64,000 nucleotides of DNA from Mycobacterium spongiae (GTDB taxonomy: Bacteria; Actinomycetota; Actinomycetes; Mycobacteriales; Mycobacteriaceae). The DNA lies in the NCBI RefSeq assembly GCF_018278905.1, contig NZ_CP046600.1:372001-436000 (forward strand). The letters are read 5' to 3'. Within the stretch, counting starts at the first letter, position 1. Each line of letters opens with the position of its first letter. The position numbers and the translations under genes are program-made. Below the pieces are notes generated by a model. The model saw nothing but the letters and a program-made list of their open reading frames with translations. It did not search any database and was not told the origin of the DNA. Below are positions 1 through 21,104 of this stretch, piece by piece.

Positions 1-3000
1 ATCTACCAATCGACACCTCAGGGTCGGCTGCTCGGCGATGATCGAGCGGCCGAGCCCCCAGAGCGCCGCCTGCACCGGGTCGACCGGCTCGCCGGGCTCG
101 GTCGCCACGGCGTGTTCGGTGATGAGCCATAGCCCACCGGGGAGCTTCACCGCGTCCTCAGTGAGCAGGGCTTGCGTGGCGCTGAGCAGGTTGGCGGTCT
201 CAGTCTGTAGGCGCGCGGCGAATTCGGCGCTCGATTCTTCTGCGCTTGGGTGTCCGGCGCTGCGCCAGACGATGCCGGAGACCGGCGCACCGCGCTCGTG
301 CGCTTCAGCGAACATCTGCTGCCAATGCGCCGGATCCATTGGATCCAAGTGCTCAGGGAACCGGAGGCCATGTGGCAGCTGGGCCGCTAGCTCGTCGAAT
401 CCGGCGATCAGCCAGGTGGCATTCGTGCTTTCAGCAGCCGCGGAATCGGCGGTTGCGGCCGGCGGCGGCACCTCATGCCAGCCAAGGGCATACAGCAGCC
501 GGGTTGCATCGCCGCCGAGCCCACGCAGCAACGCTTCCCGGGGCGCGCGCTTCACCGTGAACTCGCGAATGGCGCCCAGGTGGTGACCATCGGGATCCAC
601 GAAGTCGAGATCGAACACTTGGGTTTCGCTGTCGATGCCGCCAGCCTGCCATCGTGCACGGCAGGAGAAACGCCGTGGCATCGGGCCTCGTAGCTCCACC
701 TGCCCGTACCGCAGGGGCAAGAACAGGTCTGCCACTGCCCCTGCGTGTTCGGTCGCCGCGACAACCGCGGGGAAGGCCGGGAAGGCGATTCCGGTGCACA
801 GGTCCAGCAGCACTGGGTGGATGGGCTCGCTTCCGAGCTGTTCGGCGAGTTCGTCGCCGACGACAATGTCGCCGACTGCCTCACCGTCACCGACCCATAG
901 TGACTTCAGCGAAGTGGACCAGGTAGGTCCCCACGTCAGCTCCATATCAGCGAAGGTTTCGAACAGATGCGTCGTCTGCGTGCGGGTCAACCGCTCGCGT
1001 AGGGCGTCGATGGAATCCGCCGATGGTGGATCTTCGCCGGAATCGGTAGTGCCACTGATCACGGTGCCATCGGCGTTCAACGACCAGTCGGCATCGCGGA
1101 CGCCGTACGGGCGGCTGTGTACTCGGAAGGTCCAGCCGCCGCCATCTTCGATCGGATGCAGCGCAAGTTGAACCTCGCGAGAATGCTTGTCGCCCAGAAT
1201 GATCGGCTCGTAGAAGAAGACATCGCGCACTCGCGCCGGCGTTCCGACCGCGGCTAGGGCCATTGCGGCGTACGTTGCACCCGGAACGACAACCGTCCCG
1301 TAGATGACGTGATCGGACAGCCAAGGCTGCGATCGTATCGACAGCCTACTGGTGTAAACGGCATCGCCGGAGGCGAGATCCTTTGCACTACCCAAGATTC
1401 CGGACGCCGCAGTGCCTTCGACGGCGATTCCGGAAGTCTTCGGCCAGAAATGACGGCGCTGGAACGGATAGGTCGGCAGTTCCAGTCTGTGGCGTGGTTG
1501 CTGGTGTAGTGCAGAGAAGTGGGGGCGATGTCCGGAGACGTAGGCCGCGGCAAGTGCCTCGGCGATCTGTCGCCGGGCATCGGCGCCTTTGCGTAGGGAA
1601 ACGATCGCGCGCGGCGCGGCCGTGTGTTCCGGCCAGACCTGCACGGCGGCCGCGGTCAGGACTGGTTGCGGCCCGATCTCCATCAGCACCGAGCATCCCA
1701 GTTCGGCCACGGTGCGCACGCTCTCGGCGAACTGTACCGGCTGGCGAGAATGGCGCCGCCAATACTGAGCGTTCAGCGGGGCGTCTGCCGCGACGACCGC
1801 GCCGGTGCGGTTGCAGACCAGCGGCCGGGTCGGGGTGGCGAACTGTAGTCGCGCTGCATAGGATTCGAATTCCCCGAGCACCGGTTCCAACAACTCCGAA
1901 TGAAAGGCATGGCTCGTGTCCAGCCAGGTGCAGCGGATTCCGTTATCACCGCACGCCGCGACGATCTGCTCGAGATCGGATGCTGGACCCGACAGCGCCG
2001 TATTGGGACCGTTGTAGGCGGCGACCGAAACTCGCGGGAAGGTGTCGGCAACCTCCTTCACGTGCTCGGCGTCGGCGAACACCGCGACCATTCGGCCGCC
2101 CTCGGGAAGGCTGCCGAACAGCCGGCCACGCTCCGCCACGAGCCGTGCCCCGTCCTCGAGGCTGAACACGTCGGCCACACATGCCGCCGTGTATTGGCCC
2201 ACGCTGTGCCCAAGCACGACGTCGGGCTCGATCCCCCACGACTGCCACAGCCTGGCCAGTCCCATCCCAACGGCGAACAGCGCGGGTTGAGCAAAAGAAG
2301 TGTGCCGCAGCGTTTCTGCGGCATCGTCGCCAGAGCCCCCATCCGTGGCGAACAGCACATCCAGCAACGGACGCGGCAGTATGGGGTCCGTCGCTTCTGC
2401 ACACCGTGTCACGGTGTCGGCGAACACGGGTTCGGCGTCGAACAACTCGCGGGCCATCCCTGGGTACTGGCTGCCCTGCCCAGTGAACAACCACGCGGTC
2501 GCCGGCGGGTCAGCGCACTCGCCACGCACCATTCCAGGACGTAGCCGGTTCTCGCTGAACTCGGCCAGTAGGTTGCGAGTCTCCGCCACGGTGTCAGTGA
2601 CAAGCGCTGCGCGGTGTTCGAAATGCGAACGCCCGACGCCGACCGTGAAGCACACGTCGGTGATATCGACCTTTGGGTGCGCTTCCAGCCAGGATCCGTA
2701 ACGCTGCGCCAGCTCCACCAGCGCCTGCGGCGAGCGCGCCGACAGTGGCAACACACTGACCGGATCATCGCGCACGTCCGACTCCGTTGCTGCGGTGACG
2801 TCGGGCACGACGTCGGTTGCCGGGTACTCGTCGGCGGGAGTCGATTGTGCTGGCGCCTCCTCGATCAGCACGTGCGCGTTCGTGCCGGTGAACCCGAACG
2901 AACTCACTCCGGCACGCCGCGGTCGGCCGTTGGCCTGCCACGGGATTGCCTTGTCCACGACCCGCACCGGCAACGAGTCCCAGGGAATATGCGGCGACGG

Positions 3001-6000
3001 AGTCTCAAAGTGCAGGTTCTGCGGGAGAACTTCATGCTGCAACGACAACACGACCTTGATCAGCCCGGCGACCCCCGCGGCCGATTCGAGGTGCCCGATA
3101 TTGGTCTTCACCGATCCGATCAGCAGCGGCCGGTCCGGCTCGCGGCCGCCACCATAGACGGCCGCGGCGGCCTGGACCTCGATCGGGTCACCCAGCGCCG
3201 TTCCGGTGCCGTGCGCCTCGAGGTAGTCAACGTCGCGACCGTCGACACCTGCACGAGCCAGCGTCGCGGAGATAAGCCGTTGCTGTGCACCACCATTGGG
3301 CACGGTCAAACCGCTGGAAGCCCCGTCTTGGTTGACGGCGCTACCACGGATCACCGCGCAGATCCGATGGCCGTCGCGTACCGCATCGCTCAGCCTCTTG
3401 AGTACGAGGATCCCGCATCCTTCGCTGCGAACGTAGCCGTCGGCCGCGGCGTCGAAGGTCTTGCATCGTCCGTCAGGAGACAGCATCCGTGCCCGCGAAG
3501 CGGCAACGATGGACGCCGGGCTCAATAGCACGTTCACCCCACCAGCCAGCGCCAGATCGCAGTCGCCAGCGTGCAATGCCTGGCAGGCTTGGTGGACGGC
3601 GACCAGCGAAGCACTGCAGGCGGTATCGACCGCCATCGCGGGTCCTTCGAGTCCGAGGGCGAACGCAACTCGACCGGCGATGGCATTGAGCGCATTGCCG
3701 GTGATGAAATGGGCTTCGATGCTCTCGACCGGGTCGGCGGACAGCAAGTGTGAATACTCGTTGGCCGCAACCCCCACAAAGATGCCGCTTCGGCTGCCGC
3801 GCAACCCCGCGGGGGAATACCCGGCGCGTTCCAGGCCTTCCCAGGCGATCTCGAGCATCAACCGCTGCTGCGGATCCATCCACACGGCCTCACGGGGGGA
3901 AATTCCGAAGAACTCCGGATCGAATCCGTCGATCCCGTCGAGGAATCCACCGCAGCGGCTGTAGATCTTGCCCGGCGTCTCTGGATCCGGGTCGTAATAC
4001 TCGTCGACGTCGAAACGGTCATCCGGGATCTCGCGGATCGCATCGATACCACCGGACAGCACGTCCCAAAAACCATCGCAATCGGAAGAGCCCGGAAATC
4101 GGCAGGCAACCGAGACGATTGCGATCGGTTCATCGGTGGGCCGTTGGATTCCGGAGGCCGCTACCGCGGCCGGCCGCGCACCTGAGGCCGTCCCTGAACT
4201 GGCGGAAGCCTGTTCGCTGATGCCGAGGACGTCGACAAGCAGATACGTGGCCACGTCGGTGAGTCGCGGATAGTCCATGGCGAGGGTCGTCGGGAGCTCG
4301 CTACCCACGGCCTCCTCAACCCGGCGCCGCATTTCGACCGCCATCAGCGAATCCATGCCGAGGTCGAAGAATCCGGCCTCTTCGCGGATCTCCGCCCTAT
4401 CGATTCGCGTCACTTCCGCCACAACGTCGCGCAGGTACTCCACGACGAGTTTCTTCCGCTGTTGGGCCGGAGCCAGGGTGAGCCGCTCAACCAATCGGGT
4501 GGTCTCGGGTCCTGCCGGTGCGGGCGCGGAGTCCGGCACCTCGCGCTCCAACTCCGCCAGAAATGCGCGTTTTCCCGCCTGCTGGTAGAGCGGTAGGAAG
4601 CGAGCCCAGTCGATCTGGGCCACAACACCCTGCGCCGCTTCGGGTGGTGCCCCGGGTGTCGCCGGAGCCGCCATGAGGTCGGCCATCCCCGCTAGTGCGT
4701 CGGCAGGCTTCAATGTCGTGACCCCGCGCCGATCTAGTTGCGCACGGGCTTCAGGGTCGGCCATGCCCGCCGACCACGGACCGAAGTTGACACTGATCCC
4801 AGGAACACCCTGCTCACGCAGGCGCCAGGACAATCCGTCGAGGAAGGCGTTGGCCGCGCTATAGGCGGTTTGGCCGAAGCTGCCCCACACCGCGGCGATC
4901 GACGAGGTGCTGAGGAAGAAGTCCAGCTGCATGTCCGCTGTTGCTTCGCTCACATGCCAAGCACCCCAAACCTTCCCAGCGAAGACTCGATCGACTTCGG
5001 CGTCGTCCAAGGTTCGCAGTGGGGTGTTGCCGATCTCGCCGGCGGCATGCACGACTCCCGCCAGCGGCGGTAGCTCGGATCCCACGGTTGCCATGAGCCG
5101 AGCGACATCGTGCGGGTCGGCGACATCGGCCCCGATCACCCGAAATTCGCAACCGGACTGGTCACGCATCGCGTCGATGCGCTGTTGGGTCACATCGCTG
5201 GGGGTGCGTCGGCTGGTCAGCACCAGGTGCCGGGCGCCGTGCGCGGCAAGATATCCGGCGATTTCCAGCCCGACCGCACCCAGCCCGCCGGTCACCAAAT
5301 ATGTTGCGTCATCACGCAATACCGGCGGTGTTGTGGCCGGTTGTCCGGCGCGTCTCGTCAGCCGCGCCACATAGATCGCGTCATCCCGCACCGCGACCTG
5401 GTCTTCCCTGCCGGATAAGTCTGGTGATGCTGCCAGCAGCTGATCGATCACGCGCGACCACTCGTCGGCGTCGCCTGCGGACAGATCTGCCAGTCCGCCC
5501 CACACGTGCGGATGCTCCAGCGAGGCAGCGCGACCGAACCCCCACAGGCAGCTCTGCACCGGCGACACGGTGTCTGAGTCGCTGACTCGTTGTGCACCAC
5601 GGGTGACTAGCCAGATAGGCGTCCGCAGCTCGGCAGCGGTCGCAGCCCGGAAGAGGAGCCTGGTTCCTACCAAGACTCGATGCTGCATCCGCAGCAACGA
5701 CCGCATCGATGTCTCACTGTCGTCGAGCGCCCCGAGGTACACGATGCGCAACGTCGATTCCTCTGCCACCGCGGCGCGCAACGCGACCTCGAGCCCGTTT
5801 TCATCTGTCTCGGATGTCGGCACTCCGATGATCTGGTGTCGGTCGCCCCGTGCGTTCAGCACGTCGACCACTGGCTCAATCACCTCGGCGCGATCACCGA
5901 TCAGGAGCCAAGCAGACCGCTCGTCGGTATCTGCTTGTCTGGTGGTTGCCGCAGTGGCTTTCTCCCAACGAATCTCGTAACGGGCATCTGCCACCGACAG

Positions 6001-8889
6001 TGCGTCACGCTGTTGGTTGTGTTGCGCAGCAAGCTTTGTCAGCACGTCGAGGGTCTGCTGATTGGCGCCCGCTCCGTCAAGCAGCGCGGCGAGTTCCTCG
6101 ATCTGGCCATCCTCGAGAAGGCGGACGGCTTCGGTAGGCGCGGCTGATGTCGGATGGGAGGTCTGGCTGGAGATCTGCGTGGGTGGGACCCGCTTCTCAT
6201 GGAACCAGTACTGGCGATGCTGGAACGGGTAGGTCGGCAGGTCGAGCTGACGCACGGGCGGTTTCTGGAGGGCACCGAATTCGGGCACGTGGCCGACGAT
6301 GTAGGCGTCGGCAAGGGCCTCGGTGATCTGGCGTTGGTCATCGGCGTTGCGACGCAGCGACGCGATCGCTCGTGGCGCGGTTGCCGGGTCAGGCCACGCC
6401 CGCAGGGCTGCGGCGCTGAGTACCGGTTGTGGACCGACCTCCAGCAATACCGCGCAACCGAGCTCCGCGAGCGTGTGCACGCTCTTGGCGAATTCGACCG
6501 GTTGCCGCGCATGGCGGCGCCAATAGGGACCATCCAGCGTCACGTTCCTGCCGAGGGCCGTGCCGGTGCGGTTGCACACCAAAATCCTTTGTGGCGATGC
6601 GAACTCGAGCCGGCTCGCATACGACTCGAATTCATCGAGCACAGGATCCAACAGCTCGGAGTGGAAGGCGTGGCTGGTATCCAGCCAGTCACACCGGACA
6701 CCGTCGGCCATCAACCTGGCCACCGCCCGGTCCAGATCTTCGGCTGGCCCCGACAACACAGTATTGGCGCCGTTGTAGGCGGCCACCGACAGCCGGGGGA
6801 ACTCGTCGGTGAGGGCCTCGACCCGCTCCGCGGCAGTGAACACCGCAACCATCCGACCGCCAGCGGGCAAACTACCGAAAAGGCGGCCACGCTCGGCGAG
6901 CAACAACGCTCCGTCTTCGAGACTGAACACACCGGCTACGCAGGCCGCCGAATACTGGCCGACGCTGTGGCCCAGCACCACATCAGGTTCGAGGCCCCAC
7001 GATTGCCAGAGCCGGGCCAGGCCCATTTCCACGGCGAACAGGGCGGGCTGAGCGTAGCTGGTCTGGCGGAGAGTGGCTTCGCTATCCGGACTGTCCGTGT
7101 CGAAGATGACGTCCAACATGGGTCTTTCGAGCACGTCAGCGACACTCGCGGCGCACCGGGTCACCGCTTCGGCGAATATCGGCTCAGTCTCGAATAGCTG
7201 TCGGGCCATGCCCGCGAGCTGGCTGCCTTGACCCGGGAACAACCAGGCTGTCTTCGGCCTATCAGCGCATACTCCCCGCACCAAACCCGGTGCCGGGCGA
7301 TCGTCGGCGAGCGCGCCGAGTAACTCCGTGGCCGATTCCGTCGACCGCACCACCAACGCTGCGCGGTGTTCGAGATGAGATCGCCCGACTCCGGCGGTGT
7401 GGCACACATCCGACAACCTCGTCTGCGGGTGTGCGCTCAACCAATTGCGGTATTGGTCAGCGAGCTGCGCCAACGCGGCCGGGCTGCGTGCCGACAGCGG
7501 CAATACGTGGAACTTTCGATCCTCGGGCTGCTCGAGCGGACCTGGCGCCGCGACAACCCGGTCTACCTCATCGGGCGCTTCCTCGACGATGAGGTGCGCG
7601 TTGGTTCCGGAGAACCCGAACGAACTGACTCCGGCAACGCGGCGCCGACCGTCGCGTTCCCAGGCTGTGGCCTCCTGCACGACGCGCACCGAAAATTGGT
7701 CCCACGGAATATGCGGTGACGGATTCGAAAAGTTCAGGTGCTTGGGCAAAACCTCATGTTCGAGCGACAGAATGACCTTGATCAGACCCGCAATCCCCGC
7801 CGCGGCTTCCAGATGCCCGATGTTCGTCTTCACCGATCCGATCAGCAGTGGGTGGCTTGAGTCGCGCCCGCCGGCGAGTACCGCGGCGGCTGCCTGGACC
7901 TCGATCGGATCGCCCAGGGATGTCCCGGTTCCGTGCGCCTCCAGGTACCCCACGTCGGTGGCCGCCAGGCCGGCGACTCCGAGAGCCTCGGTGATGACCC
8001 GTTGCTGGGCGATGCCGTTTGGGACCGTCAGACCCCCTGATGCGCCGTCCTGATTGACCGCGCTGCCCCGGATCACTGCCCGAATCCGGTCACCGTCACG
8101 GATCGCGTCATCAAGGCGCTTCACGACGACGACCCCGCAACCCTCGCCGCGTACGTAGCCGTCCGCGGCTGCGTCGAACGTCTTGCACCGACCGTCGGGA
8201 GCCAGCATTCGCGCCTGGGAAAAGGTGATCATGGTCCCTGGGCTGATCAGGACGTTCACGCCGCCGGCCAGCGCGAGGTCGCACTCTCCCAAACGCAGCG
8301 CTTGACATGCCTGATGGATTGCCACCAGTGACGAGCTGCACGCCGTATCGACCGTGACCGCTGGGCCCTGCAGCCCCAGCCGATAGCTGATCCGGCCCGC
8401 TCCTGCGGCAGCCGAGGTCCCAATAGCCATATATGGTTCGATATCGGCGTAGTCCAGCTCATCCGACATCATTCCGAGGTAGTCATGCGTCCCGAGGCCC
8501 ACGTACACGCCGGTCTGGGTGTTCTCCAAGGCCATCGGCGCTGTCCCTGAATGCTCCAGCGCCTGCCACGCCGTTTCGAGCAACAGCCGATGCTGTGGAT
8601 CCATCAACATGACCTCGCGGGTCGAAACCCCGAAAAAAGGCGCGTCGAACCCTGCTATGTCATCGATGAACCCCGCCCGGCGGGTGACGATCTTTCCCGG
8701 TGCCCCGGGCGTCGGGTCGAAGAACTCCGTGACATCCCAACGGTCCTCGGGGACCTCCGACACCGCATCCCGCCCCTGGCGCAGCACCTCCCAGAACTCG
8801 TCCGCATTTGCCGCACCTGGGAAACGCGCCGCATAGCCGACGATCGCAAAACCCGATGCCGGCTCCACCAGTTCTTCGGCGGTTGCCAT
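1..8889 (-). CDS. pks: Bimodular type I polyketide synthase (3' end off window)
   Basis: One uninterrupted reverse-strand frame from ATG at 8889 to the window edge gives 2963 residues; the C-terminus is missing. Module 1: KS (about residues 12-435, VDTACSSS with Cys184, EAHGTGT near 317), AT (about 546-850, GHSVG Ser642), KR (about 1194-1375, TGGLGAVG near 1200 and a YSAAN active-site region), ACP (GMDSL, Ser1514). Module 2: KS (about 1587-2005, VDTACSAS with Cys1758), AT (GHSVG), DH (His2527 in HVIYGTVVVP, Asp2696 in HPVLLD), then the start of a structural KR-like region. Both AT domains carry HAFH, which in known families points to malonyl-CoA. Module 1 has no DH or ER. Together with divergent papA3-mmpL10 and the PE gene this matches the trehalose polyphleate PKS; that assignment is inference from context and architecture. 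Confidence 0.9.
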   Translation of the reverse strand, partial: MATAEELVEPASGFAIVGYAARFPGAANADEFWEVLRQGRDAVSEVPEDRWDVTEFFDPTPGAPGKIVTRRAGFIDDIAGFDAPFFGVSTREVMLMDPQHRLLLETAWQALEHSGTAPMALENTQTGVYVGLGTHDYLGMMSDELDYADIEPYMAIGTSAAAGAGRISYRLGLQGPAVTVDTACSSSLVAIHQACQALRLGECDLALAGGVNVLISPGTMITFSQARMLAPDGRCKTFDAAADGYVRGEGCGVVVVKRLDDAIRDGDRIRAVIRGSAVNQDGASGGLTVPNGIAQQRVITEALGVAGLAATDVGYLEAHGTGTSLGDPIEVQAAAAVLAGGRDSSHPLLIGSVKTNIGHLEAAAGIAGLIKVILSLEHEVLPKHLNFSNPSPHIPWDQFSVRVVQEATAWERDGRRRVAGVSSFGFSGTNAHLIVEEAPDEVDRVVAAPGPLEQPEDRKFHVLPLSARSPAALAQLADQYRNWLSAHPQTRLSDVCHTAGVGRSHLEHRAALVVRSTESATELLGALADDRPAPGLVRGVCADRPKTAWLFPGQGSQLAGMARQLFETEPIFAEAVTRCAASVADVLERPMLDVIFDTDSPDSEATLRQTSYAQPALFAVEMGLARLWQSWGLEPDVVLGHSVGQYSAACVAGVFSLEDGALLLAERGRLFGSLPAGGRMVAVFTAAERVEALTDEFPRLSVAAYNGANTVLSGPAEDLDRAVARLMADGVRCDWLDTSHAFHSELLDPVLDEFESYASRLEFASPQRILVCNRTGTALGRNVTLDGPYWRRHARQPVEFAKSVHTLAELGCAVLLEVGPQPVLSAAALRAWPDPATAPRAIASLRRNADDQRQITEALADAYIVGHVPEFGALQKPPVRQLDLPTYPFQHRQYWFHEKRVPPTQISSQTSHPTSAAPTEAVRLLEDGQIEELAALLDGAGANQQTLDVLTKLAAQHNQQRDALSVADARYEIRWEKATAATTRQADTDERSAWLLIGDRAEVIEPVVDVLNARGDRHQIIGVPTSETDENGLEVALRAAVAEESTLRIVYLGALDDSETSMRSLLRMQHRVLVGTRLLFRAATAAELRTPIWLVTRGAQRVSDSDTVSPVQSCLWGFGRAASLEHPHVWGGLADLSAGDADEWSRVIDQLLAASPDLSGREDQVAVRDDAIYVARLTRRAGQPATTPPVLRDDATYLVTGGLGAVGLEIAGYLAAHGARHLVLTSRRTPSDVTQQRIDAMRDQSGCEFRVIGADVADPHDVARLMATVGSELPPLAGVVHAAGEIGNTPLRTLDDAEVDRVFAGKVWGAWHVSEATADMQLDFFLSTSSIAAVWGSFGQTAYSAANAFLDGLSWRLREQGVPGISVNFGPWSAGMADPEARAQLDRRGVTTLKPADALAGMADLMAAPATPGAPPEAAQGVVAQIDWARFLPLYQQAGKRAFLAELEREVPDSAPAPAGPETTRLVERLTLAPAQQRKKLVVEYLRDVVAEVTRIDRAEIREEAGFFDLGMDSLMAVEMRRRVEEAVGSELPTTLAMDYPRLTDVATYLLVDVLGISEQASASSGTASGARPAAVAASGIQRPTDEPIAIVSVACRFPGSSDCDGFWDVLSGGIDAIREIPDDRFDVDEYYDPDPETPGKIYSRCGGFLDGIDGFDPEFFGISPREAVWMDPQQRLMLEIAWEGLERAGYSPAGLRGSRSGIFVGVAANEYSHLLSADPVESIEAHFITGNALNAIAGRVAFALGLEGPAMAVDTACSASLVAVHQACQALHAGDCDLALAGGVNVLLSPASIVAASRARMLSPDGRCKTFDAAADGYVRSEGCGILVLKRLSDAVRDGHRICAVIRGSAVNQDGASSGLTVPNGGAQQRLISATLARAGVDGRDVDYLEAHGTGTALGDPIEVQAAAAVYGGGREPDRPLLIGSVKTNIGHLESAAGVAGLIKVVLSLQHEVLPQNLHFETPSPHIPWDSLPVRVVDKAIPWQANGRPRRAGVSSFGFTGTNAHVLIEEAPAQSTPADEYPATDVVPDVTAATESDVRDDPVSVLPLSARSPQALVELAQRYGSWLEAHPKVDITDVCFTVGVGRSHFEHRAALVTDTVAETRNLLAEFSENRLRPGMVRGECADPPATAWLFTGQGSQYPGMARELFDAEPVFADTVTRCAEATDPILPRPLLDVLFATDGGSGDDAAETLRHTSFAQPALFAVGMGLARLWQSWGIEPDVVLGHSVGQYTAACVADVFSLEDGARLVAERGRLFGSLPEGGRMVAVFADAEHVKEVADTFPRVSVAAYNGPNTALSGPASDLEQIVAACGDNGIRCTWLDTSHAFHSELLEPVLGEFESYAARLQFATPTRPLVCNRTGAVVAADAPLNAQYWRRHSRQPVQFAESVRTVAELGCSVLMEIGPQPVLTAAAVQVWPEHTAAPRAIVSLRKGADARRQIAEALAAAYVSGHRPHFSALHQQPRHRLELPTYPFQRRHFWPKTSGIAVEGTAASGILGSAKDLASGDAVYTSRLSIRSQPWLSDHVIYGTVVVPGATYAAMALAAVGTPARVRDVFFYEPIILGDKHSREVQLALHPIEDGGGWTFRVHSRPYGVRDADWSLNADGTVISGTTDSGEDPPSADSIDALRERLTRTQTTHLFETFADMELTWGPTWSTSLKSLWVGDGEAVGDIVVGDELAEQLGSEPIHPVLLDLCTGIAFPAFPAVVAATEHAGAVADLFLPLRYGQVELRGPMPRRFSCRARWQAGGIDSETQVFDLDFVDPDGHHLGAIREFTVKRAPREALLRGLGGDATRLLYALGWHEVPPPAATADSAAAESTNATWLIAGFDELAAQLPHGLRFPEHLDPMDPAHWQQMFAEAHERGAPVSGIVWRSAGHPSAEESSAEFAARLQTETANLLSATQALLTEDAVKLPGGLWLITEHAVATEPGEPVDPVQAALWGLGRSIIAEQPTLRCRLVD

Positions 8890-9213
8890 GCGGTTGTCCT
8901 CTCTGCCTCTGCCAGCGAAGATTCGATCCTGCGGGCCTTGCCCGGTTGCCCAGCCGAAGCACCCTGCCGCTGGCAAGTATTACAAGTATGAATAATTCGC
9001 CGCGTTGGCACCGGAAAATACGGCCAGCGGTAGCTGCCGGCCAGCGTCCCGCCGCCCTGGTCGCGGGGGTCGTTGTGCCACCGCCGCGGCCTGCGGTGCC
9101 CGAGCTGCTGCAAGCGTTTCCGCTCATGCCGCCGACGGCCACCGCCGAAAGGGCTATCTTGATCTCACCACCAGCGTGGCCGGACTGCAGCCGTGGAAAC
9201 CGGGGAGAAGATA
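8890..9213. promoter_or_regulatory. Divergent pks/papA3 intergenic region
   Basis: Roughly 320 bp separate the PKS start from the papA3 start. The stretch 8970-8997 is notably AT-rich for this genome and contains two AAGTAT copies (8975-8980 and 8984-8989). It is the most likely place for the divergent promoters, but no certain -35/-10 pair could be picked. A short direct repeat CGGCCAGCG occurs at 9021-9029 and 9038-9046. No small gene is supported. Confidence 0.45.
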
Positions 9214-10635
9214 TTGCGCATCGGGAAAGTTACGATCGGCTCCATTGCTCAATGGACGCTGAGCCCAGGCTTAGTAACCTCCTGGCACCCAACAACTGCG
9301 TCGTGCGAAAAGGCCCGGCAAGCGCCGGTCAGCTCTGTGCCGGTCAGCTACATGCAAACCCAACATCTTCGCGGCTATTACGAACGAACCGCCGCCGGCC
9401 TCGACTATTCACGGCAAATCATCGCCACCTGTGAAGTGCCCGGTACGTGCGATATTGACGCTATGACTTATGGTCTCAACGCGTACCTGCGTCGGCACGA
9501 CACGTACCGCAGTTGGTTCGACTACGCCGGTGCCGGAGACATCACCAGGCATACCATCAGCAACCCTGCCGATATCGAATTCACGCCAACCGATCATGGC
9601 GAAATGACCATTGACGAAGTGCACAACCATGTGGTTGCCATACCGAATCCATTGCAGTGGGGTTGCTTCACCTTCGGCATTATCCAAGCCGAGAGCCACT
9701 TCACTTTCTACGCCAGTATCGACCATGTCCATGGGGATGCGACATTGATTGGTGCAACCATGTTGGAAGCCCATGGCCAGTACGCGGCGCTGACCGGTGG
9801 CGGTGAGCCCCTTGCGCTGCCCGACGCCGGCAGCTTCGACGACTACTGTGACCGCGAGCGCCGGTACACCTCAGGGTTGACGGCAGATTCGCCCGAGGTA
9901 CGCGCCTGGATCGACTTCGCCGAGAATAACAATGGAAGCCTTCCCGACTTCCCACTTCCGCTGGGTAACCCCATGGAGCCGACCGCGGGCGACATGGTGA
10001 TGGAGCCGCTGATGGACGCCGAGCAGACGGCGAGGTTCGAATCGGCCTGCGCGGCGGCCGGCGCTCGCTTCGTCGGCGGGTTGTTTGCCTGCCAAGCCCT
10101 GGTGGAACACGAGTTTACGGGCGCTGTCACCTATTACGGACTCACTCCCAGAGATACACGTCGAACGTCAGAGAACTTCATGACCCAGGGTTGGTTCACC
10201 GGACTGGTTCCGATCACCGTCCCAATAGCTGCCGCGTCGTTCAGTGATGCGGCGTGGGCGGCCCAGGTTTCCTTCGATGCAAATCTGGACTTGGCGAAGG
10301 TGCCATATTATCGAGTTTTGGAATTGGCACCGTGGTTGCAGCGGCCCCGACCCAACTTTCCGGTTTCCAACTTCTTGCATGGCGGCGCCGCCCCACTCAA
10401 CGCCGTGCTCGCGGCAGCTGAATTGGGCTACGCGAATAATATCGGGATTTACTCCGACGGGCGGTACTCCTATCAGCTGACCATCTATGTATTCCGGTAC
10501 GAAGAGGGCACGGCGATGGCGGTGATGTTTCCGGACAACCCGGTCGCCCAGAAATCGGTCGCGCGCTATATGGCGGCGATGAAGTCCGTGTGTGTGCGGG
10601 TCGCTGATCGCGGGCATTGGGGACGCGTTGCATAG
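9214..10635 (+). CDS. papA3: PapA3-type polyketide-associated acyltransferase
   Basis: Acyltransferase of the condensation-domain superfamily that moves PKS-made acyl chains onto a trehalose-type acceptor. The motif HVHGD (HxxxD) is present about 170 residues in, within the stretch ASIDHVHGDA, and the C-terminal NIGIYSDGRYSYQL block is typical of PapA1/PapA3. From TTG 9214 the product is 473 residues, almost the length of M. tuberculosis PapA3. TTG is chosen because GGGGAGAAG lies just upstream and the N-terminus then aligns with the family; GTG 9193 is an in-frame alternative adding 7 residues. It diverges from the PKS and is followed by mmpL10, consistent with a synthesis-export unit. Its acceptor and acyl substrate cannot be read from sequence. 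Confidence 0.9.
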   Translation: MRIGKVTIGSIAQWTLSPGLVTSWHPTTASCEKARQAPVSSVPVSYMQTQHLRGYYERTAAGLDYSRQIIATCEVPGTCDIDAMTYGLNAYLRRHDTYRSWFDYAGAGDITRHTISNPADIEFTPTDHGEMTIDEVHNHVVAIPNPLQWGCFTFGIIQAESHFTFYASIDHVHGDATLIGATMLEAHGQYAALTGGGEPLALPDAGSFDDYCDRERRYTSGLTADSPEVRAWIDFAENNNGSLPDFPLPLGNPMEPTAGDMVMEPLMDAEQTARFESACAAAGARFVGGLFACQALVEHEFTGAVTYYGLTPRDTRRTSENFMTQGWFTGLVPITVPIAAASFSDAAWAAQVSFDANLDLAKVPYYRVLELAPWLQRPRPNFPVSNFLHGGAAPLNAVLAAAELGYANNIGIYSDGRYSYQLTIYVFRYEEGTAMAVMFPDNPVAQKSVARYMAAMKSVCVRVADRGHWGRVA

Positions 10636-10786
10636 TGTCGCGTAGTTCGATGGCCGCTCTGTTCCTGAAATTCCCCATTGTGACCGGGGGCGGTACGACA
10701 CTGCCCGGTCTGACGCTATATGTCGACGTTTCAACGAGCGTCGCTGACGGGAGAACGCGGCCCCGGAGGCCGGAGGTGAGGGACGC

Positions 10787-13780
10787 GTGCAACGGCTAGC
10801 CGATTTTGTGGTGCGGTGGCCCTGGGTGGTCATCGGGATGTGGGTCGCGATTGCGGTGGCGCTGCCCCTGACGTTCCCGTCCCTGGGCGAGATGTCCCAG
10901 AGGCATCCGCTCTCGATTTTGCCCAGCGACGCACCATCGAGCGTTGCCGCTCGAAAGATGACCAAGGCGTTTCATGAATCGGGCGCCGAAGACCTCCTCT
11001 TGGTGGTCCTCACCAATGAGAAGGGGCTCGGACCTGCCGACGAAGCCGCTTATGAACGGTTGGTAGCCGCGCTGCGCGAGGACCGGCGCGATGTCGTGAT
11101 GGTGCAGGATTTCATCAGAACACCGTCCCTGCGACGAGTCTTGAGCAGCGAGGACCACAAGTCCTGGGTGCTACCGGTCGGCATTGCGGGTGAGTTGGGT
11201 ACTCCGAGGTCGCATGCTGCTTACGTCCGGGTTGCCGAGTTGGTCAAGGCGGCCGTTGCGGGAACGCCGCTGACGGCAAACCTTGCGGGACCCGCGGCTA
11301 CCGTCGCTGATCTCACCGTGGCCGGCGAGCGGGATCGGATTCCGATTGAGATTGCCATCGCTGTCCTTGTGCTCGTCGTGCTGTTGTTGGTGTACCGCAA
11401 CCCGATCACCATGCTGCTGCCGCTGATTGCGATTGGGATGTCCTTGATGATCGCCCAGGCCGTGGTGGCTGGATTCTCGCAACTGAGCGGCTTGGGCGTA
11501 TCGAACCAGTCCATCGTATTTCTGAGCGCGATCGTGGCCGGCGCGGGGACGGATTACGCGGTTTTTCTGATTAGCCGCTACCACGACTATGTGCGGCTCG
11601 GTGCTGATTCTGATCAAGCAGTGAAGCGGGCGATGATCTCAATCGGAAAGGTGATCGCTGCTTCCGCGGCCACAGTGGGAATCACCTTTGTCGGGATAAG
11701 CTTCGCCCGGATGGGCGTGTTCTCCACGGTCGGTGTGGCGTCTGCGATCGGGATCGGGGTGGCATTCCTGGCGGCGGTCACATTGCTGCCGGCGATTCTG
11801 GTGCTTGCCGGCCCACGGGGCTGGATCACCCCGCGACGCGAACTGACGGCTCGATGGTGGCGGCGTTCGGGGATACAGATTGTGCGCCGGCCGAAGGTCT
11901 ATCTGGCAGCCAGCGTGGTTGTGTTGATCATTCTGGCCTGCTGTGCGGGGCTAGTGCGCTTCAACTATGACGATCGCAAGGCGTTACCGTCTTCCGCCCC
12001 AAGCTCGGTCGGGTATGCCGCGCTAGACCGCCATTTTTCGGTGAATCAGTCCATCCCGGAGTACCTGCTCGTCCAGTCACCGCATGACCTGCGGACACCG
12101 CGAGCCCTTGCGGACTTGGAGCAAATGGCAAGCCGAGTCAGCCAATTGCCGAATATCGCTATGGTCAGCGGCATCACTCGACCCGCGGGTGTGGTGCCGG
12201 AGCAGTTCAGAGCTACCTATCAGGCCGGGGCTATCGGTGCCCAGCTAGGCGGCGTGTACAACCTGATCAACGACCATAACGACGATTTCGGCCGACTCGT
12301 CGACGGGGCCAACACGCTGGCCGACAATCTTGTCGATGTCCGCGGTCAGGTCTACCGCATCGTTTCCAGCATCGAGGATCTGATCGACGCTTTCGCGTCG
12401 ATGAGAGCCCAATACGGCGGCGACAAGATGGTCAAGGAGGTCGTTACCGCGGCCCGGCTCGTCAGAAGCATCAATTCGCTGGGCAATTCCATCGGCGTGA
12501 ACTTTTCGGCCGTCAAAGACATGTTCGCCTGGGTGGCGCCGGTGCTGGCAGCACTAGAGGCCAACCCGGTCTGCGATGCCGACCCCTCCTGCACCGCTAC
12601 CCGCGGTCAGTTTGAGCGGATCGTCTCGGCGCATGGTAACGGAAGCCTCGACGAGATCAATGATCTTGCCCGACAACTGCGGGAGATGCAGGACAGGCAG
12701 ACTCTCAAAGCGACGGCAAACCGCCTGCGCGGTGCACTCGCCAACTTCGTCAACGCCCTGCATTCGATGGGGCTGGACCGCCCCGGTGGCTTGCAGGCGG
12801 GCCTCACGGATCTCCAACACGGTGCTGACCGATTCGCAGGCGGCAGCCGCCAAGTGGCCGACGGAGTGGAACGACTGGTCGACGAGATCGAGCAGCTGGG
12901 TGCCGGCCTGGGTAAGGCATCGGCGTTTCTGCTGACGATGAAGCGGGACGCGGCACAACCGTCTATGGCGGGGTTCAATATTCCGCCTGAGCTACTGCGC
13001 ATGGACGAATTCAAGAAAGCGGCCACGATGTTCATTTCGCCGGATGGTCACTCGGTGCGCTACTTGGTTCAAACCAAACTGAATCCGTTTAGCGCGGAGG
13101 CCATGGATCAGGTCGATGTCATCAGCGACACCGCGCGGGGAGCGCAGCCGAATACCACATTGGCGGATGCCTCGGTGTCGATGGCGGGATATCCAGTTAC
13201 GTTGCGGGACACGCGCAACTACTATGAGCACGACATCCGATTCATTATCGCCGTAACCATGGTCGTTGTGTTGCTGACCTTGATGGTGCTGCTGCGCGCG
13301 ATTGTCGCTCCGCTGTATCTGGTTGGTTCCGTTGTGATTTCGTATCTGTCGGCGGTCGGCATAGGCGTCCTGACGTTTCAATTCGTACTCGGCCAGCAGT
13401 TGCATTGGAGCGTTCCGCCGCTAGCCTTCGTGGTGTTGGTCGCGGTGGGGGCCGACTACAACATGCTCTTTGTCTCGCGAATGCGTGACGAGTCTCCACG
13501 CAGCATGCGGTACGGGGTCATTCGCGCACTGAGTTCGACCGGCGGTGTGATCACCGCGGCGGGTTTGATTTTCGCGGCCTCGATGTTCGGTCTGCTGTTC
13601 TCCAGCATAGGCACGGTGGTCCAGGGCGGTTTCGTGATCGGTATCGGAATCTTGTTGGATACCTTCTTAGTACGCACCGTAACGGTGCCCGCTATAGCTG
13701 CTCTCGTTGGGCGCGCGAGCTGGTGGCCATCGCGTCTGCGATTGCCGGGGTCACTGCCGCGGTCACCGGTGCTCGACTGA
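10787..13780 (+). CDS. mmpL10: MmpL10-type RND lipid transporter
   Basis: Inner-membrane RND-superfamily exporter of 997 residues, close to the roughly 1000 of MmpL10. It has the MmpL layout: N-terminal TM1, a first periplasmic loop, TM2-6 (about residues 185-345), a large second loop (about 400-810), then TM7-12. The two Asp-Tyr pairs used for proton relay in MmpL proteins are visible in [11 protein letters not shown] and [13 protein letters not shown] start 10787 is supported by GGAGGTGAG at 10772-10780. About 150 bp separate it from papA3. In known TPP and DAT/PAT loci, MmpL10 exports the partly acylated trehalose; here that role is inferred. Confidence 0.9.
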
Positions 13781-13787
13781 ACTCGCG

Positions 13788-14933
13788 TCAGAAATTGGCC
13801 TGAGATAACGCATACAGGGCACCAGAGAGTATCTGCGAGAAAGGATCGCCGCCGCCGCCGAAGGTGGCCTGAGTGGCGGGCGCGGTGACGGCGGCGGGGT
13901 CGAAGCCGTTCACCGGGTCCACGGAGATCGGAGCGGTGAGCGGATCGTCGTTTCGCGAATAGCCGGTATCGACCATAGGCTGTAATTCGGCATCCAGCTG
14001 TGTCAGCACATCGTCGGATACTCCCAGGTATCCCAAGGGCAAGATCAGCGGAAGATGTCTTTGGGGAATCAGATACGTCGTTGTCGTCGCGCCCCGAGAG
14101 TTGACGGTCGATCTGATGTTCTGTGGTGGCACCATGTCCGGGTTGGTGAAGGCGACGGCAGTATGGCCAGTTACCAGGCCCATGAACGTGTTGGCGAGGG
14201 CTAGCAGGTTGTCCGGTCTGTCCGGAAAATCTGCGAGCGAATCGTATGCGGCGACGAAAACCTTGGTGTCGTATTGGCTCTCCACCGGAGGTGGTATGCG
14301 GTAGTCGAGTATGGGAACGACGGCGCCAACCGGAAACACCGAAGTCAGGAAACTCTCACCGAAGGCGTGCCGCGCAATTGGGTCACCAAACGTGGCGAAC
14401 GTCAATTGATCTGGCGGTGGGGCGGTCGGATCGTCGGCGAGTCGCGCCTGCTCGGCATCGAGCACGAGCGAACCCTCGGATAAACCGATCGCGGTACCGG
14501 GGCCACCCCTGCGGATCGCGGCATCCAGGTTGTCCACTCCGACGACCACCGACTCCCCGATGCTGGGGCCGTCCATACCCAGGCCGGGAAACACTTCATC
14601 CAGCTGGCTGATGCCGGGGAAGAGTTTCTCCGGCACATGGCCCTGAACCTGACCGGCGGGATAGTCGACAATTTCCCGGTTCAGGTTGGGGAACCATTCG
14701 CTACCTTCGCGGCGGATGTACTCCTCGTACGGGATTCCCAAGACGTGGGCGCCCCCGAGGGCGTATGCCATCCCGCTGGCGGGTGTCGGTTCGGCTGGCG
14801 TTGCGTCGGACAGTCCGGCGTCGGCGATTGCCGGGTCGGCTGGCGTCTCGTCGGCTGTCGCAATCCCGAGACCGAAACATCCTGTGGCCCCAGCAATTCC
14901 CAGCGCGGAAACTCCTGCGAGTAGTTTCTTCAT
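13788..14933 (-). CDS. Exported PE-PPE-domain acyltransferase (Chp/TPP 'PE' type)
   Basis: 381-residue protein with an N-terminal hydrophobic signal or anchor (about residues 1-27, starting [15 protein letters not shown]) followed by a PE-PPE alpha/beta-hydrolase domain. The nucleophile motif is GLSEG with Ser152. Family members Chp1 and Chp2 in M. tuberculosis, and the protein called PE in TPP loci, catalyse the last acyl-transfer steps on trehalose lipids outside the membrane. It is convergent with mmpL10, with only 7 bp between the stop codons. It is not a PE-family antigen: the short PE N-terminal domain is absent. The specific reaction is inferred from neighbours. Confidence 0.85.
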
Positions 14934-19433: not shown

Positions 19434-21104
19434 TTGACCGCGCAACTGGCCAGTCACCTGACTCAGGCCGCAACACCAGCCCACGAGCAGCCCTACCTTG
19501 CTCGGCGGCAGAACTGGGTCAACCAGCTCGAGCGGCATGCGATGATGCAGCCGCACGAGCCGGCGCTGAGGTTTCTGGGCAGTACCGTGACATGGGCCGA
19601 GCTGCGGCGTCGAGTTGCAGCGCTAGCCAGTGCCTTGAGTCGCCGCGGTGTCGGTTTCGGCGACCGGGTCATGATTCTGATGCTCAACCGCACCGAGTTC
19701 GTCGAGGCGGTGCTGGCCGCGAATATGATCGGGGCCATTGCGGTTCCGCTGAACTTCCGGCTGACCCCAACCGAAATCGCTTTCTTGGTCGAGGACTGCA
19801 CGGCCCGGGTGATCATCAGCGAAGCTGCGCTGGCTTCGGTGGCCACCGGTGTCCGCGACATCCAGCCGGCGGTGAACATGATCGTGGTCGCCGGCTGTGC
19901 AACCGATGACACGGTGGTCGGCGACGCCGATGTGATCGCGTACGAAGATCTGATCAGCGAGCCCGGGGATGGGCTCGATCCGCTGGACATCCCGAACGAC
20001 TCGCCGGCGCTGATCATGTACACCTCGGGGACGACCGGCCGCCCCAAAGGGGCCGTGCTGACCCACACCAACTTGACCGGCCAGACGATGACCGCGCTGT
20101 ACACCAACCGTGCCACTGTCGGTAGCGAAGTCGGTTTCATCGGCGTCCCGTTCTTCCATATCGCGGGAATCGGCAACATGCTGACCGGGATGTTGCTTGG
20201 CGTGCCCACCGTGATCTATCCGGTCGGTGCGTTCGATCCCCAGCAGCTGCTCGACGTTCTGGAGGCTGAAAAAGTCACGGGTATCTTTCTGGTCCCCGCC
20301 CAATGGCAGGCGGTCTGCGCCGAACAGGAAGCACGACCGCGAGATCTCAGCTTGCGGGTGATGTCGTGGGGAGCCGCGCCGGCGCCGGACGCGTTGCTGC
20401 GTTGGATGTCGGCAGTCTTCCCTGGCACCCAGATCCTGGCCGCGTTCGGCCAGACCGAGATGTCGCCGGTCACCTGCATGCTGCTCGGCGACGACGCGAT
20501 CAGGAAGCGTGGATCGGTCGGCAAGGTGATTCCGACAGTCGCCGCCCGCGTTGTCGACGAGGACATGAACGACGTCCCGGTCGGCGAAGTTGGTGAAATT
20601 GTCTACCGGGCACCGACGTTGATGCGCGGCTACTGGAACAACCCGGAGGCGACCGCGGAGGCCTTCGCGGGTGGCTGGTTTCATTCCGGGGATCTCGTTC
20701 GCATGGACGAAGACGGGTATGTCTGGGTGGTGGACCGCAAGAAGGACATGATCATCTCCGGTGGTGAGAACATCTACTGCGCCGAGCTGGAGAATGCCCT
20801 AGCCAGTCATCCCGACGTCGTCGAAGTCGCGGTCATCGGTCGGGCCGATGAGCAATGGGGCGAAGTGCCGATCGCGGTCGCCGCCGTAACGAATAGCCAC
20901 CTTCGGATCGAAGATCTAAGTGAGTTCCTGGCTGAGCGCCTTGCCCGCTATAAGCACCCCAAGGCGCTCGAGGTCGTGGACTCTTTGCCGCGCAACCCCG
21001 CAGGGAAGGTGCTCAAGACAGAACTTCGTTTGCGTTACGGCGGCGGGACAGATTCCGAAAGCCGTTCTGTGCCAGCTAATTCTGTGACGAGAAAGGACGA
21101 TTGA
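19434..21104 (+). CDS. fadD5: Fatty-acyl-CoA/AMP ligase FadD5
   Basis: 556 residues from TTG 19434, matching M. tuberculosis FadD5 (554). The ANL-superfamily motifs are visible: YTSGTTGRPKGAVLTH (phosphate-binding loop, about residues 198-213), AFGQTEMSP (A5), the FHSGDL block (A7) and VVDRKKDMIISGGENIY (A8 hinge), with the C-terminal catalytic lysine region NPAGKVLK. It activates fatty acids in the cytoplasm. As the first gene of the mce1 operon it is thought to charge lipids brought in by the Mce1 importer or recycled mycolic acids. It diverges from mce1R. Confidence 0.93.
   Translation: MTAQLASHLTQAATPAHEQPYLARRQNWVNQLERHAMMQPHEPALRFLGSTVTWAELRRRVAALASALSRRGVGFGDRVMILMLNRTEFVEAVLAANMIGAIAVPLNFRLTPTEIAFLVEDCTARVIISEAALASVATGVRDIQPAVNMIVVAGCATDDTVVGDADVIAYEDLISEPGDGLDPLDIPNDSPALIMYTSGTTGRPKGAVLTHTNLTGQTMTALYTNRATVGSEVGFIGVPFFHIAGIGNMLTGMLLGVPTVIYPVGAFDPQQLLDVLEAEKVTGIFLVPAQWQAVCAEQEARPRDLSLRVMSWGAAPAPDALLRWMSAVFPGTQILAAFGQTEMSPVTCMLLGDDAIRKRGSVGKVIPTVAARVVDEDMNDVPVGEVGEIVYRAPTLMRGYWNNPEATAEAFAGGWFHSGDLVRMDEDGYVWVVDRKKDMIISGGENIYCAELENALASHPDVVEVAVIGRADEQWGEVPIAVAAVTNSHLRIEDLSEFLAERLARYKHPKALEVVDSLPRNPAGKVLKTELRLRYGGGTDSESRSVPANSVTRKDD

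Follow-up and report, generated by a model that had tools for sequence, protein, structure and literature searches.

Does the gene cluster at the left end of a 64,000-nt stretch of the Mycobacterium spongiae genome specify trehalose polyphleates (TPPs) and, if so, how would its polyketide synthase (PKS) be primed? The stretch, hereafter the window, corresponds to C1:372001-436000 of a closed, one-contig Mycobacterium genome of 5.58 Mb (G000). TPPs are large surface lipids. The therapeutic phages BPs and Muddy need them to infect M. abscessus and M. smegmatis (available parts of PMC10465359), so that which species make TPP bears on phage choice. Judging from sequence comparisons, we consider it likely that the cluster is a TPP-type cassette for biosynthesis and export in a nontuberculous Mycobacterium, the lineage of which lost the fadD23 of the locus, and that it would be a working one in which the starter FAAL is borrowed from another pathway.

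A sequence-only reading had described a bimodular PKS, a divergent PapA3, an MmpL10 and a PE protein in one cluster, at positions 1..14933. The four genes are real and lie where they were placed, the PE being of the TPP transacylase type, but the locus begins outside the window. The minus-strand PKS ORF runs from window position 8976 to 2303 bases beyond the left edge and measures 3759 amino acids (aa) from its first start codon, with no internal stop; counted from the probable ATG at 8889, pks (a bimodular type I PKS) covers window 1..8889, extends ~2.3 kb leftward to genome C1:369697 and specifies ~3730 aa. Its domain order (Pfam) is KS-AT-KR-ACP followed by KS-AT-DH-ER-KR-ACP, with DTACS in both KS domains, GHSVG and HAFH in both ATs, HxxxGxxxxP in the DH and, for module 1, GMDSL in the ACP. 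We take GHSVG plus HAFH to denote the malonyl type; on this reading of the motifs, the bimodular PKS with malonyl-type ATs that marks a TPP locus is present. The motifs of the first AT recur in all 119 other TPP PKS fragments in which module 1 is represented by over 900 aa. By analogy, the PKS would make a long unbranched polyunsaturated (phleic-type) acyl chain. Module 1 includes a KR and, by Pfam, no DH, though phleic acids are polyunsaturated; the DH of module 2 may serve both modules, and a DH-less module 1 is probably a family-wide trait of TPP PKSs. A search of the open-licence literature for phleic acid together with polyketide synthase returned nothing.

An intergenic stretch of 303 bases (8890..9192), likely the promoter region of both arms, separates pks from the divergent papA3 (9193..10635, plus strand, predicted start). 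The PapA3-type acyltransferase has a Condensation fold (PF00668), matches the PapA2 structure 6aef with 516 bits and carries the HVHGD motif, which occurs in 121 of the 128 TPP-locus PapA3 matches (counted with duplicates) and is absent from all 11 other PapA matches; it would form the diacyltrehalose precursor. Downstream, mmpL10 (10787..13780, plus strand) specifies an MmpL10-type RND exporter with two MMPL domains (PF03176), whose best solved relatives are MmpL4 and MmpL5. PapA3 and MmpL10 are 82% and 81% identical, respectively, to their counterparts in L186 and L187. The fourth gene, PE (13788..14933, minus strand), encodes a predicted transacylase which, with 626.9 bits on the NCBIfam equivalog NF041570 "acyltransferase PE" (cut-off 580) versus 335-372 bits for the DAT/SL-type PEs listed, is of the TPP type; serine 152, within GLSEG, is invariant in all 13 aligned sequences.

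Left of pks, a domain scan found a methyltransferase, a luciferase-like protein, a thioesterase-like protein, an FAD oxidase, another MmpL, a DUF7159 protein, a PE-PPE protein and a transhydrogenase subunit. This second MmpL (1087 aa; window -10557 to -7294, L010:9443-12706), beside the DUF7159 gene and 5 kb to the left of where the PKS ends, is ~47% identical to MmpL10-type proteins of relatives, and its sole matches in the stretches from eight relatives are their MmpL10 genes. No conservation of gene order outside the cassette was seen in eight relatives, within stretches of at most ~10 kb on each side and with PE dropped by the ORF filter.

The alternative of a DAT/PAT- or sulfolipid-type locus in place of a TPP locus draws on one trait that the M. 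spongiae cassette does share with such loci, namely the convergence of mmpL with PE/chp, found in all six DAT/SL-type loci in which MmpL adjoins PE. The DAT/SL-type loci compared are otherwise distant: PE is 48-54% identical to theirs versus 59-82% to those of TPP loci, and the PKS 27-33%. In a set of five (L049-L052, L054; labels assigned by similarity), the values are 49-54% for PE and 27-32% for the PKS. Their PKS lies on the papA strand, whereas the M. spongiae PKS is divergent from papA3 and bimodular, and a PE/Chp of the DAT/PAT-SL type accompanied by a PKS on the papA strand was not found. In trees of PapA3, MmpL10 and PE, the cassette falls inside the TPP group, with 100% support for its split from the DAT/SL-type loci; together with HVHGD, this assigns both the PapA3 and the MmpL10 of the cluster to the TPP clade. 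Identities to the genes of TPP loci are mostly 64-83% (lowest 59%, PE of L057), and the PKS of these loci is divergent where it is seen. On the PE and PKS identities and the tree split, we rejected a DAT/PAT or SL-1 identity, which we hold to be exceedingly improbable. The TPP-type assignment proposed from the sequence is upheld by the PE equivalog, the bimodular PKS, both ATs of which are of the malonyl type, and the 100% split, the pathway being assigned by family models and trees, with M. smegmatis MSMEG_0408-0412 absent among the 80 named loci returned. The nearest kin of the cassette in the tree are G063 and G023, followed by Mycobacterium sp. Marseille-P9652 and the europaeum/parascrofulaceum/scrofulaceum group.

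The same reading had added a fadD23 to the set, and this part did not stand: there is no fadD23 (FAAL) in the cluster, FAAL matches are absent from its vicinity and from the sequence to the left of the window, and FAAL searches and a FAAL tree revealed no TPP-type FadD23 in the remainder of the closed 5.58 Mb genome. A position left of the window was rejected as none of the left neighbours matches a FAAL, and an AMP-binding gene to the right (19434-21104) was rejected because its C-terminal domain is PF13193, not the FAAL-type PF23024. PF23024 has seven matches in the genome (15 of 15 first-look candidates scored), all beyond 1.7 Mb and none near the locus, the nearest starting at 1.73 and 5.28 Mb. 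None of the seven belongs to the TPP FadD23 clade, which is monophyletic (100/100) with 25 of the 76 TPP-tagged FAALs sampled and again with 13. The best FAAL of M. spongiae is 57% identical to a TPP FadD23 versus 72-80% in all five non-query controls that keep fadD23. When 25 genomes were searched in this way, with part of the first-look candidates scored (55 of 68 for M. spongiae), 19 FAAL-less genomes including M. spongiae reached at most 63% to TPP FadD23. A genus-wide search with TPP FadD23 gave no M. spongiae match at E <= 1e-240 among the three of 68 first-look candidates scored there. On these searches and the FAAL tree, relocation of fadD23 within the genome was likewise rejected.

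Predicted TPP-type capacity is ordinary in the genus, where such loci are known and common. PE was detected at E <= 1e-100 in 293 of the 396 genus genomes; by our reading of the listing, the 19 with E above 1e-130 are DAT-type, and 274 genomes with a TPP-type PE remain. A first set of cassettes comprised 97 rows (114 TPP loci, less 11 duplicates and seven loci in which a needed gene was missing, cut or split, i.e., L077, L086, L087, L114, L117, L130 and L203, plus the window). Twenty loci were added, chosen non-randomly by their listed PE coordinates among 86 genomes in which a TPP-type PE was accompanied by no FAAL match at E <= 1e-240, which gave 117 TPP rows; L228 repeats L144 (116 distinct) and L109 ends too soon, so that 115 distinct cassettes, M. 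spongiae included, were scored for FAAL. A TPP-type FadD23 is present in 67 of them and a different FAAL in 20; the other 28 have none, where none means no FAAL within 6 kb of PE (for L240, none in the 20 kb fetched). L186, counted as FAAL-less, does have a FAAL of a different kind farther off, at 7 kb. Another FAAL lay near PE in 19 of the 20 added loci, which means that the E-value join alone overstates the absence of FAALs.

All 67 proteins in the FadD23 class are closest to TPP FAALs, by a margin of at least 10.7 points. The 20 cassettes with a different FAAL clade (support 100/100 with 11 rows, 10 distinct) carry it on the strand opposite PE and all belong to one branch, which also holds the FAAL-less L135; other FAALs can evidently sit in the FadD23 role. 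In 19 of the 20 fetched loci L226-L245, this distinct FAAL and PE are convergent, which looks like a non-orthologous exchange; that the branch consists of rapid growers is our guess. The 28 FAAL-less cassettes comprise 11 (M. spongiae included) and 13 in two neighbouring groups, plus four more (L101 with L240, L135, L201). Node support is 48 and 59 on whether the groups of 11 and 13 share one FAAL loss. Loss of fadD23 is likelier than late gain, given that the DAT/SL-type loci also carry a FAAL (four of five). Between PE and the next MmpL of the FAAL-less relatives, there is no FAAL match, and a replacement FAAL at that place was rejected; the ~2 kb gap before the next MmpL occurs in many loci, with and without FAAL.

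The variation touches the least conserved component of a locus that is itself ordinary, and we found no description of it in the open-licence literature searched. No account of FAAL-less TPP loci turned up there; for TPP in gordonae, scrofulaceum, asiaticum or europaeum, no paper with "polyphleate" was among the matches listed, and the available parts of the literature on fadD23 with polyphleate make no mention of such loci.

In a lineage that lost fadD23, the starter acid would be activated by a FAAL of another pathway. The most plausible stand-ins in M. spongiae would be a FadD28-like FAAL at 1.730 Mb, a FAAL at 1.769 Mb or the two FAALs at 2.34-2.39 Mb. The first lies beside an MmpL and a PKS and scores 1004.9 bits, under the 1100 cut-off that its G063 relative passes (1126.8); the second lies beside PKS genes, and both presumably belong to something resembling a PDIM locus. 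The region 2340000-2393000 (L183, L184, L207, L208), a large cluster that we take for another acyl-lipid locus resembling lipooligosaccharide loci, holds two FAALs, three PapA-like genes, four PKSs of ~2100 aa and an MmpL ~50% identical to MmpL10. No FadD21-type FAAL was seen in the M. spongiae genome. One is kept elsewhere in all five europaeum/scrofulaceum-type genomes tested (G037, G061, G099, G223, G247), chosen since each showed one FAAL, G247 being placed by FAAL and identity as its cassette was too short for trees: their only FAAL at E <= 1e-120 passes the FadD21 cut-off (1100 bits) with 1169.8-1220.2 bits. In four of the five stretches around it, no match to the PKS, PapA, MmpL or PE references was seen over 7.7 kb or more to each side (for L211, 0.6 kb on the side where the fetched stretch begins), and in the fifth, L213, a PKS is 2.5 kb away. 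A FadD21-type FAAL was seen with no DAT/PAT genes in the stretches fetched from G099, G061, G037 and G223 (L210-L212, L214). In L213 and L215, this FAAL and a PKS face each other, the picture one would expect had the intervening papA3, mmpL10 and chp2 been deleted. Outside the europaeum/scrofulaceum group, G138 has a similar FAAL just below the cut-off (1059.5 bits). Other FAAL-less genomes differ from this pattern: G358, in the M. spongiae group of 11, showed only FAALs 53-56% identical to TPP FadD23, and the one tested clusters with the M. spongiae FAAL at 2.38 Mb, not with FadD21, whereas the FadD21-type FAAL of G023 lies inside a DAT-type locus (L219, 1131.7 bits). Hence, no single stand-in common to all FAAL-less genomes was seen.

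Substitution has a precedent in M. smegmatis, where deletion of fadD23 left the loss of TPP incomplete, possibly as another FAAL partly overcomes the defect (available parts of PMC10465359). It is not universal, since in M. abscessus, every transposon mutant tested for a TPP gene was without TPP, and complementation of the fadD23 mutant restored phage infection (same source, in part). Whether the FAAL is the exchangeable part of TPP cassettes, so that most keep FadD23, one branch swapped it and a large group borrows from another lipid pathway, is to us an evenly balanced proposition; if true, one ligase feeds two surface-lipid pathways.

That no TPP-type FadD23 was found in the genome, with the available substitutes belonging to other pathways, also lends itself to another explanation: the PKS might be primed by a different starter, through direct acyl-CoA loading or a FAAL of other chain preference, and the product would be a related but different acyltrehalose. 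The remaining proteins tell against it, being much like those of loci that keep FadD23 (PKS module 1 ~67-78% identical, PapA3 69-80%, PE 59-76%) and having the same AT and PapA motifs, which makes this outcome unlikely in our estimation.

There remains the orientation of PE, which is convergent with mmpL10 (seven bases separate the two ORFs). In all 115 other distinct TPP cassettes scored, PE shares the strand of mmpL10; M. spongiae alone has it opposite. Despite the DAT/SL-like arrangement, we read the inversion as a separate local event because PE groups with TPP. No repeat that would explain it was found amongst six short imperfect inverted-repeat pairs. One 15-base pair (13552-13566/15110-15124) brackets PE and was rejected as the cause, since its left arm lies inside mmpL10, which an inversion there would have cut. 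The orientation is known from one genome, with an assembly error as a possible alternative cause. PE would need transcription separate from papA3-mmpL10, and the inversion could impair expression.

Taken together, the missing fadD23 and a PE flipped in this species alone among the cassettes scored could be the early steps of pathway loss, the cassette being a decaying remnant. By our count, 122 of the 396 genus genomes, some incomplete, are without a TPP-type PE. The dN/dS values against the nearest relative, L186, are 0.122 for papA3, 0.179 for mmpL10, 0.151 for PE and 0.188 for PKS module 1, versus 0.037-0.112, 0.072-0.109, 0.060-0.153 and 0.123-0.179, respectively, in four fadD23-keeping pairs (L120-L121, L126-L129, L107-L122, L115-L118), a comparison that is inexact as the M. 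spongiae-L186 pair is the more divergent. For three of the genes (papA3, mmpL10, PKS module 1), they are thus slightly above those pairs, and for PE they lie close to the upper end of the range, yet they are still only 0.12-0.19. The four remaining genes are intact and, by this estimate, under purifying selection (for the PKS, module 1 only). With the long PKS frame uninterrupted and the FAAL-less groups of 11 and 13 retaining papA3, mmpL10, PE and a pks, decay appears to us quite improbable.

The likely reading remains a working TPP-type cassette with a borrowed FAAL. Following the M. smegmatis/M. abscessus pathway, the PKS would extend a fatty acid with malonyl units to a long unbranched polyunsaturated acid, PapA3 would place this product and a shorter acid on trehalose, MmpL10 would export the diacyltrehalose, and PE would move phleic chains between exported diacyltrehaloses to yield the polyacylated lipid. 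If TPP capacity were annotated by requiring the published set of five genes (these four and fadD23), the M. spongiae lineage would be overlooked. FAAL-less lineages would also allow one to test which FAAL provides the starter for the TPP PKS and whether a given FAAL is restricted to a single pathway.

Among the known systems closest to the cassette are the loci of the europaeum/parascrofulaceum/scrofulaceum and gordonae/asiaticum groups (e.g., L069-L076, L078-L083, L186, L187, L189, L191, L195, L197, L202, L204), which have the same four genes, ~73-83% identical, and no FAAL within 6 kb of PE, but in which PE has the same direction as mmpL10. With the TPP loci of M. smegmatis (MSMEG_0408-0412) and M. 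abscessus (MAB_0939 region), compared by published description, the cassette shares PKS, papA3, mmpL10 and PE in one cluster and a PKS of similar length (~3730 aa versus 3,697 aa for MAB_0939; PMC10465359, in part), whereas fadD23 was not found and PE is inverted in M. spongiae. The claim that no such locus exists in M. tuberculosis holds insofar as that species lacks TPPs (available parts of PMC10465359), but it does have a related cluster, pks3/4, papA3, mmpL10, chp2 and fadD21, for DAT/PAT (PMC4183827, in part). According to the same portions of that source, the DAT/PAT locus draws on the same classes of enzyme and likewise works in two stages, with cytosolic diacyltrehalose formation followed by transacylation outside, and differs in making methyl-branched acids; in the DAT/SL-type loci of the genus, which stand in here for the M. 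tuberculosis sequence, the PKS is ~30% and the PE ~50% identical to those of M. spongiae.
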